Source: Promethearchaeota archaeon (lineage in GTDB: Archaea > Asgardarchaeota > Lokiarchaeia > Sigyniarchaeales > SOKP01). Taken from it: DNA of 64,000 nt. Under the pieces are notes generated by a model. The model made no database searches. It worked only from the letters and a program-made list of their open reading frames with translations, and was not told where the DNA came from. A program made the position numbers and the translations under genes. This document shows, piece after piece, positions 33,565-35,549 of this stretch (the stretch's first letter is position 1; each line of letters opens with the position of its first letter). The stretch lies in the NCBI GenBank assembly GCA_019057795.1, contig JAHLWS010000021.1, forward strand, positions 1-64,000, in the 5' to 3' direction.

Positions 33565-35310
33565 TTAAGATTCAAAGACGCTATCTATCTCATCGTCTGT
33601 TACATCGAACACTTCATTGTGTGGTGGCAGTGGTTCTTTTAGAAAGAATTCAGGCAATCTATCGTCTGCGCTAGTAAATCCTGCTGCCTTATTGAACTTT
33701 AGTTCTGTATCAATAATTGACTTTCCTAGTCCCGCGATGTCGTTAACAGTTAGATTAACTCCTAATACTCCATTTACGGATTCTACCATTCCTTCTAAAC
33801 CTTCGGGGATATCTAATACGGCAAAAGCGGTAAATAGACAATAACCCGCAGCATCAATTACCGCTGTTGCGAACTGTAAATTCCGCGACAATTCTGCTTT
33901 TTTAGGGTCTCTAGGATCTGCGGTACCACCCACTCCCATAATTTCGGTTGCTATTGCGTACCCAGCCGTGTGGTCTGCTCCCATTGGAGTTGTTGCGTAT
34001 GTTACACCAATACCTTTAATTGCTCTAGGATCGTAAGCCGGTAGCGCTTGGTTCTTTACTACTGGGACTCTTGTTACGCCCATAGCTTTTCCAGTAAATC
34101 CCGTACCATTTGCTAATATCCTTCCAGTTGGAGTCTTCTTTCTAACTTCTTCCATGAGCTTTAACGCTCCCTTTGCGTCTCCAAATTCGACTAATCCACC
34201 TTCCATCGCTACGGCAATTGCGTTTCCCATTTCAATCGTGTCAAGTCCTAAGTCGTTACAAGCACGATTTAGTTCACCAACATCATCTAAGTTGTAAATG
34301 CTACAATTCGCTCCTAAGGCCCAGACAGATTCATATTCTAAAACCCCAACCGGATCTTTACCGCCCGGTTTTGTCCACACTTCAGAGCATTGAATAACGC
34401 AACCTGGGCTACAGAAATGAGGACGAACGCCGCCTCTCTTTTTGATTTCTTCCGCCTTTTTCTCACCTGAAATGTTTTCAACTCTATCATCTTGACCAGA
34501 TGAGAAGTTTCTCTGGGGTAACCCTCCTGATTCGTTAATAATATTAACTAAAACACCCGTACCATAAGTGTTTAGCGCACCTCCAGGTTTTGTCACGTCG
34601 TGAGATGTAAGTGCGTCCCTTAACTTTTTCGCCCCTTGTTTGAAAACTTCTAGGTTTTTAATTTCAACGCCTGGTGCTCCAGCATCGTCAACAACTATAA
34701 ATTTCAATCCTTTTGACGCCATAACGGCTCCAAGTCCACCCCGTCCTGCGTACCTACTAGGTAATCCTTCGGGGTCGTTAAAACAGACCCCAGAAGCTGT
34801 CCCTAACATTTCTGCAGCGATTCCACAACTACTAATGCTTACCTTATCTCCGAATTCCTTATAAAGGTCTTTGTAGACTTGATATAGTCCTTTTCCAGAC
34901 CACTTATTTGCATTTGTAAATTCAATGCCATCGTTAGTTATTTTTAGAAGGTAATAGTCCTTTCCTTCGTGCTTCCCTTCCACGATTATTGCAGCGATTT
35001 GTAATCGAGCTAACATTTGAGCGAACGTAGTACCTGCGTTTGCTTCCTTAATTCCTCCCGTTAAGGGGGATTTTGCCCCTACTGATAGTCTTCCTGATGT
35101 AGGCGCTGAAGTTCCTGTAACAATACCGGGTGCAAATACAAGTTTATTATTTGGACCCAAAGGATGGCAAAGAGGGGGTACTTCGTTTAATACAATCGTC
35201 GAAGTAAGCGAACGACCTCCAAGAGCCATGTAATCTTGAGGAAAATCCTCAAATTTGGCTTCAAGTTTGTTCATATTTACTCTTAATATTCTTTTTGGCA
35301 TAAATTTCAC
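33565..35310 (-). CDS. aor: Tungsten-type aldehyde:ferredoxin oxidoreductase
   Basis: The 581-residue product is an AOR-family enzyme, which oxidises aldehydes to acids and passes electrons to ferredoxin. The [4Fe-4S] ligands are Cys300, Cys304 and Cys308 in HFCSPGCVIQC and Cys491 in AAGYCLFTAF. The tungstopterin-binding regions GVTYATTPMGADHTAGYA and RYAGRGGLGAVMASKG are present. Length matches the family. It heads a two-gene unit with the MoaD-like protein at 33271-33564. The substrate subtype (AOR, FOR, GAPOR-like) cannot be fixed; the CX3CX3C spacing is that of the mesophilic branch that also occurs in clostridia. Confidence 0.93.
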   Translation of the reverse strand: MKFMPKRILRVNMNKLEAKFEDFPQDYMALGGRSLTSTIVLNEVPPLCHPLGPNNKLVFAPGIVTGTSAPTSGRLSVGAKSPLTGGIKEANAGTTFAQMLARLQIAAIIVEGKHEGKDYYLLKITNDGIEFTNANKWSGKGLYQVYKDLYKEFGDKVSISSCGIAAEMLGTASGVCFNDPEGLPSRYAGRGGLGAVMASKGLKFIVVDDAGAPGVEIKNLEVFKQGAKKLRDALTSHDVTKPGGALNTYGTGVLVNIINESGGLPQRNFSSGQDDRVENISGEKKAEEIKKRGGVRPHFCSPGCVIQCSEVWTKPGGKDPVGVLEYESVWALGANCSIYNLDDVGELNRACNDLGLDTIEMGNAIAVAMEGGLVEFGDAKGALKLMEEVRKKTPTGRILANGTGFTGKAMGVTRVPVVKNQALPAYDPRAIKGIGVTYATTPMGADHTAGYAIATEIMGVGGTADPRDPKKAELSRNLQFATAVIDAAGYCLFTAFAVLDIPEGLEGMVESVNGVLGVNLTVNDIAGLGKSIIDTELKFNKAAGFTSADDRLPEFFLKEPLPPHNEVFDVTDDEIDSVFES

Positions 35311-35426
35311 CTTAATTTTTAGGCATTTTATAATTGTGAATAATGTTTATATAAATTTACGTTATGTTTTTTCAGACCGAACGAAAGTTATTAGGATTAG
35401 TAATAAAAATCCAAATCATAAAAAAA

Positions 35427-35549
35427 CAGGCCCGAGGGGATATGTTCAAAAAACGCGAAGTGCGTATTATATTGAACCCCCGACCTTCTGCTTTCTCCAT
35501 ACACATTATGTAGGAGGCAGCCGCGATATCCATGCTTCGCCACGAGCCT
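35427..35549 (-). tRNA. tRNA-Arg(CCT) with two introns
   Basis: Read on the minus strand, the 123-nt gene folds as a tRNA. The acceptor stem AGGCTCG/CGGGCCT, U8, the D-stem GCGA/TCGC, loop GG, anticodon CCT with T33, and T-arm GGGGGTTCAA..ATCCCCT are all present, with G73 at 35427. An 18-nt intron (35493-35510) sits after base 37: CTCC (bases 32-35) pairs with GGAG in the intron, flanked by 3-nt bulges TAC and AAA. A 30-nt intron (35442-35471) sits in the T-loop after base 58: GTTC pairs with GAAC, with bulges AAT and ATA. Removal of both leaves a 75-nt tRNA. G27-A43 in the anticodon stem is a mismatch. Confidence 0.93.

Follow-up and report, generated by a model that had tools for sequence, protein, structure and literature searches.

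The window, a 64-kb stretch of DNA from a Lokiarchaeia genome, very probably carries on its minus strand a functional, single-copy tRNA-Arg(CCT) gene with two bulge-helix-bulge (BHB) introns, both of which would be cut by the splicing endonuclease of the host, with the exons joined by RtcB and CCA added to the 75-nt product. This reading is based on the motifs, on the junctions compared among relatives and on the endonuclease and RtcB genes of the genome, from which we infer transcription, enzyme assembly, cleavage, ligation and AGG translation. A tRNA gene of this kind is already known and is ordinary for the lineage; the one described here is a clean example.

Structure and detection of the tRNA-Arg(CCT) gene

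Read on the minus strand from 35549 to 35427, the gene consists of AGGCTCGTGGCGAAGCATGGATATCGCGGCTGCCTCCTA, cataatgtgtatggagaa, AGCAGAAGGTCGGGGGTTCAA, tataatacgcacttcgcgttttttgaacat and ATCCCCTCGGGCCTG, and cutting out the lower-case segments leaves a 75-nt tRNA with the anticodon CCT. The 5' exon (35511-35549, tRNA positions 1-37), which holds the 5' strand of the acceptor stem, the D-arm and the anticodon arm up to A37, was delimited on the post-splicing cloverleaf and is conserved in 30 genomes of the family. Intron 1 (35493-35510, 18 nt) lies between positions 37 and 38 and has the central helix CTCC/GGAG with the bulges TA^C and AA^A. The middle exon (35472-35492, positions 38-58), supported by the cloverleaf and by relatives, comprises the 3' strand of the anticodon stem, the variable region, the 5' strand of the T-stem and TTCAA, and it is followed by intron 2 (35442-35471, 30 nt), placed in the T-loop between positions 58 and 59, with the helix GTTC/GAAC and the bulges AA^T and AT^A. 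Both introns were assigned from the motif, the paired helix and exact absence in relatives. The 3' exon (35427-35441, positions 59-73) ends in the discriminator G, and CCA is not encoded. Immediately 3' of the tRNA, an oligo-T run (35420-35426, minus strand) is a probable transcription terminator, the 3' flank being T-rich in most relatives; further downstream and outside the tRNA, the neighbouring gene on the same strand (33565-35310) encodes an aldehyde:ferredoxin oxidoreductase (AFOR) family protein with the Pfam domains AFOR_N and AFOR_C.

Both introns show the architecture expected of a BHB, a 4-bp central helix with a 3-nt bulge at each splice site, and their removal restores a standard cloverleaf with T8, A14, T33, GG in the D-loop and the T-loop TTCAAAT, whose sole flaw is the anticodon-stem mismatch G27-A43. 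This mismatch counts against our preferred explanation, as does the lowest-energy fold of the T-arm, which is slightly off the strict BHB; in this predicted fold the bulge bases A57-A58 pair with UU of the intron instead of forming a 3-nt bulge. The same alternative pairing is possible in 13-15 of 22 distinct T-loop introns of the family, whereas 21 of the 22 can form the first pair of the BHB inner helix.

A script that enumerates BHB introns and tests for a cloverleaf recovered exactly the introns 37/38 and 58/59 in 35549-35427, confirming the coordinates, strand, anticodon, T-loop position and 75-nt product given in the original prediction. When both strands of the window were scanned for cloverleaves with up to two BHB introns removed, as that prediction had proposed with a BHB-aware tool, the single match was the tRNA-Arg(CCT), with both introns, and the same scan gave zero matches on four order-1 Markov-randomised windows. 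ARAGORN found no tRNA at this locus or elsewhere in the window, and neither did Rfam at its gathering threshold. A second tRNA-Arg(CCT), which if uninterrupted and expressed in place of this one would have spoken against the prediction, was absent from the results of a blast of the genome with the mature tRNA sequence. Searching the genome with RF00005 yielded 27 tRNAs at E<=0.001 and missed several genes interrupted in the T-loop. Asgard tRNAs of this type can therefore escape standard finders, and the annotated tRNA complements of Asgard genomes are probably incomplete as a result.

The gene would be transcribed as a 123-nt precursor, and both BHB motifs would be cut by the host tRNA-splicing endonuclease before exon joining by RtcB and the addition of CCA to the 75-nt tRNA. 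Removal of the T-loop intron would be needed to form the elbow between the D-loop and the T-loop. The product is predicted to read AGG codons; as a tRNA-Arg(TCT) is also present in the genome (L001) and can in principle read AGG as well, the tRNA-Arg(CCT) gene is not provably essential.

Presence and absence of the introns among relatives

Searches covered 58 relatives with the precursor as query and 196 genomes of the phylum with a model of the mature tRNA (R1); as this model also matches other tRNAs, our counts are limited to loci that were read individually. Parsing by exons gave 24 orthologues, all 24 of which splice to exactly 75 nt, and six more genomes bring the family to 30. Both introns are present in 18 of these genomes, the T-loop intron alone in 8, the anticodon intron alone in 2 (G015, G029) and neither in 2 (G162, G136), and thus all four combinations occur within one family with clean junctions. 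Intron 1 is exactly absent in G019, G025, G030, G033, G121, G020, G190, G172, G162 and G136, while exact absence of intron 2 in G015, G029, G162 and G136 leaves an ordinary T-loop. The orthologues that lack an intron are joined at the predicted junction, and such precise absences settle the exon-intron boundaries. This comparison of the same tRNA in related genomes, also suggested at the outset, thus agreed with the predicted junctions.

An AFOR gene adjoins the tRNA-Arg(CCT) in most loci of the same genus and marks a conserved neighbourhood. Around the intron-free genes of G162 and G136, no AFOR gene was found within the flanks read; sequence is thus the only ground on which these two are called orthologues. 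In other Asgard families, the tRNA-Arg(CCT) genes that were read (L185, L192, L195, L197, L200, L205) are uninterrupted. Judged from the sequences of the relatives, the introns appear to have been gained or lost singly, and a series with both, either or neither intron within one family makes intron gain and loss, as well as the substrate range of the Asgard endonuclease, directly testable.

The introns have diverged far more than the exons. Mean pairwise identity is 53% for the T-loop introns (minimum 13%) and 89% for the exons of the orthologues (minimum 75%). Pairing of the central helix reaches 97.7% in the T-loop intron (22 distinct introns) against 41% in shuffles, and 100% in the anticodon intron (16 distinct introns) against 34% in shuffles, percentages that show conservation of the motif and not independent events, since orthologues are related sequences.

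These data bear on two other readings of the locus. The gene could be a decaying tRNA pseudogene with two BHB-like insertions that arose by chance, and the G27-A43 mismatch would fit this, as would the fact that neither ARAGORN nor Rfam scores a tRNA here. We consider this highly improbable, as in the orthologues the exons stay at least 75% identical, the junctions are exactly preserved and the central helices remain paired despite intron identities down to 13%, and changes in the T-stem are compensated, as in G007 (GGGAG with CTCCC). Alternatively, only the anticodon intron might be spliced, and the T-loop segment, which is predicted to fold into a stable hairpin, might be retained as an enlarged T-loop or arm. 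The T-loop is, however, required for the tRNA elbow; moreover, the segment is missing to the nucleotide in the four relatives with an ordinary T-loop, its motif is a strict BHB, and at least seven other tRNAs of the genome are interrupted at the same position. We therefore give retention, too, very little probability, and favor a functional tRNA from which both introns are removed.

The splicing endonuclease and its putative specificity

Two proteins of the genome match PF01974 above the cut-off, L036 and L037, and the RtcB ligase is encoded by one copy; the genome thus has genes for both endonuclease and ligase. L036, an EndA alpha subunit, contains the catalytic Tyr, His and Lys and is closest to the alpha subunit of Aeropyrum pernix (E=4e-34). 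It is 97% identical to the EndA alpha of the Lokiarchaeota MAGs HM4_B22 and Loki_b31, which identifies the host as a member of Lokiarchaeia and agrees with the Asgard host named in the prediction. L036 also carries the CSL ('Crenarchaea-specific loop'), which aligns without gaps to K44-P45-R46 of A. pernix (GISKPR against DVEKPR). In that enzyme, P45A and R46A drastically lower cleavage, and K44 is proposed to contact the RNA (PMC12397907). L037, the putative beta subunit, is a clear member of the family without the catalytic His, with Asp-Ser at the aligned place, and most closely resembles the M. jannaschii alpha4 subunit in sequence. The genome therefore has the sequence features of an (alpha-beta)2 EndA with CSL, namely an alpha subunit with the triad, a second subunit that is encoded separately and has an incomplete triad, and the Lys, Pro and Lys/Arg of the loop.

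The enzyme is most likely an (alpha-beta)2 heterotetramer of L036 and L037, with the CSL on alpha. It resembles the A. pernix (alpha-beta)2 endonuclease (3p1z, 3ajv; PMC6379350, PMC12397907), which likewise has a separate Y/H/K alpha subunit with K-P-R in the CSL and a second subunit whose triad is incomplete; unlike in A. pernix, the beta subunit is nearest to the M. jannaschii alpha4 subunit, and the assembly is a predicted one. A narrow-specificity, alpha4-type homotetramer of L036, with another role for L037, could also cut the two strict BHBs of the tRNA-Arg(CCT). We regard it as unlikely, given that L037 is evidently of the EndA family and lacks the catalytic His, that two family members recur across the phylum, that the alpha subunit has the CSL as found in (alpha-beta)2 enzymes, and that BHBs in G031 and G023, two of the relatives, lack one of the four central pairs.

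The two-subunit enzyme thus remains our preferred model, and its parts are widespread. EndA family members were found in 148 of 148 sampled Asgard genomes, with two copies in most, and K-P-K/R is present in every Asgard alpha read across many classes (L036, L068-L097, L098-L177); the count in named loci is 72 of the 72 that could be parsed, eight of 80 being left unparsed. The 'Crenarchaea-specific' loop is common to all Asgard alpha subunits examined, a distribution that bears on the origin of broad-specificity splicing and perhaps of the eukaryotic TSEN. A literature search, mostly outside subscription journals, found no paper describing the CSL in Asgards. The suggestion that the T-loop intron would inform the specificity of the endonuclease held only in part. 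A CSL-bearing two-subunit enzyme was found, but because both motifs are strict BHBs, the tRNA-Arg(CCT) alone neither demands nor shows relaxed specificity; G031 and G023, where one of the four central pairs is missing, offer better substrates for this question.

T-loop introns in the genome and in known systems

At least eight tRNAs of the genome have T-loop introns, the others being Arg(GCG), Thr(GGT), Lys(TTT), Ala(GGC), His(GTG), Phe(GAA) and tRNA-Sec. The eight introns (L026, L039, L040, L214, L217, L225, L226 and the tRNA of the window) are all 30-31 nt long and differ in sequence. The tRNA-Sec (L225) was recognised by eye, on the basis of a TCA anticodon and of acceptor and variable arms that are both long. 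In the Arg(CCT) orthologues, the 22 diverged T-loop introns measure 29-31 nt; introns at other positions in the tRNAs of the genome, read with the same parser, are about 15-34 nt long, some with ambiguous placement. The parser failed or was ambiguous for L013, L019, L021, L022, L024 and L025, and the genome-wide intron count is therefore partial. When the pattern searches were widened to T-loop introns of 10-24 nt and of 40-68 nt, no additional tRNA emerged among genes with GG before TTC, which the patterns require, so that some genes may escape; the candidates that passed the T-stem check lay inside long reading frames and formed no cloverleaf.

The T-loop introns of Lokiarchaeia may form a length-locked class, and the CSL may be an older trait that Asgard and Thermoproteota enzymes have in common, a tentative combined proposal to which we give somewhat less than even confidence. 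If it is true, the length lock would point either to descent from a single T-loop intron, which moved from one tRNA gene to another before the copies diverged in sequence, or to a length-measuring requirement that the Asgard CSL-type endonuclease imposes on the T-arm.

In an Asgard genome, an intron in the T-loop or a second non-canonical one had been expected to be unusual; this did not hold, in view of the number found here and of the literature (PMC5330540, PMC9499178, PMC11291895). A T-arm intron of 31 nt in the tRNA-Sec of Lokiarchaeota was published in 2016 (Mariotti 2016, as cited in PMC5330540 and PMC9499178). As it is cited there, it is alike in lineage, arm and length, and the genome's own tRNA-Sec agrees with it, whereas the tRNA described here is a standard arginine tRNA. 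Introns occur in 92-95% of the tRNA genes of Atabeyarchaeia and Freyarchaeia and are often non-canonical and multiple (PMC11291895, 2024); these hosts are likewise Asgards but of classes other than Lokiarchaeia, and the phrase 'splicing endonuclease' is absent from the paper. Crenarchaeota and Caldiarchaeum have T-arm introns as well (PMC3293823, PMC6379350). The non-canonical BHB introns of Thermoproteales and Caldiarchaeum (PMC4033280, PMC3293823, PMC8450103) share the BHB, the T-arm position and more than one intron per gene, but here the host belongs to Lokiarchaeia and the length of the T-loop intron is fixed at 29-31 nt.

Several other tRNA loci of the genome were also noted. The tRNA-His(GTG) and tRNA-Phe(GAA) (L217, L226) apparently have three BHB introns each, one of them in the T-loop, and L025 (G000:C70:5491-5560) is probably a Ser(GCT) tRNA, seemingly interrupted near the 5' junction of the acceptor and D-arm. 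Finally, some 5 kb away from the intact tRNA-Arg(GCG) gene there is a 66-nt copy of its 3' end, 97% identical and with the T-loop intron included (duplication loci G000:C52:62423-62463, L218, and C52:67406-67446, L219), which resembles the duplicated attachment site that an integrated element leaves behind.
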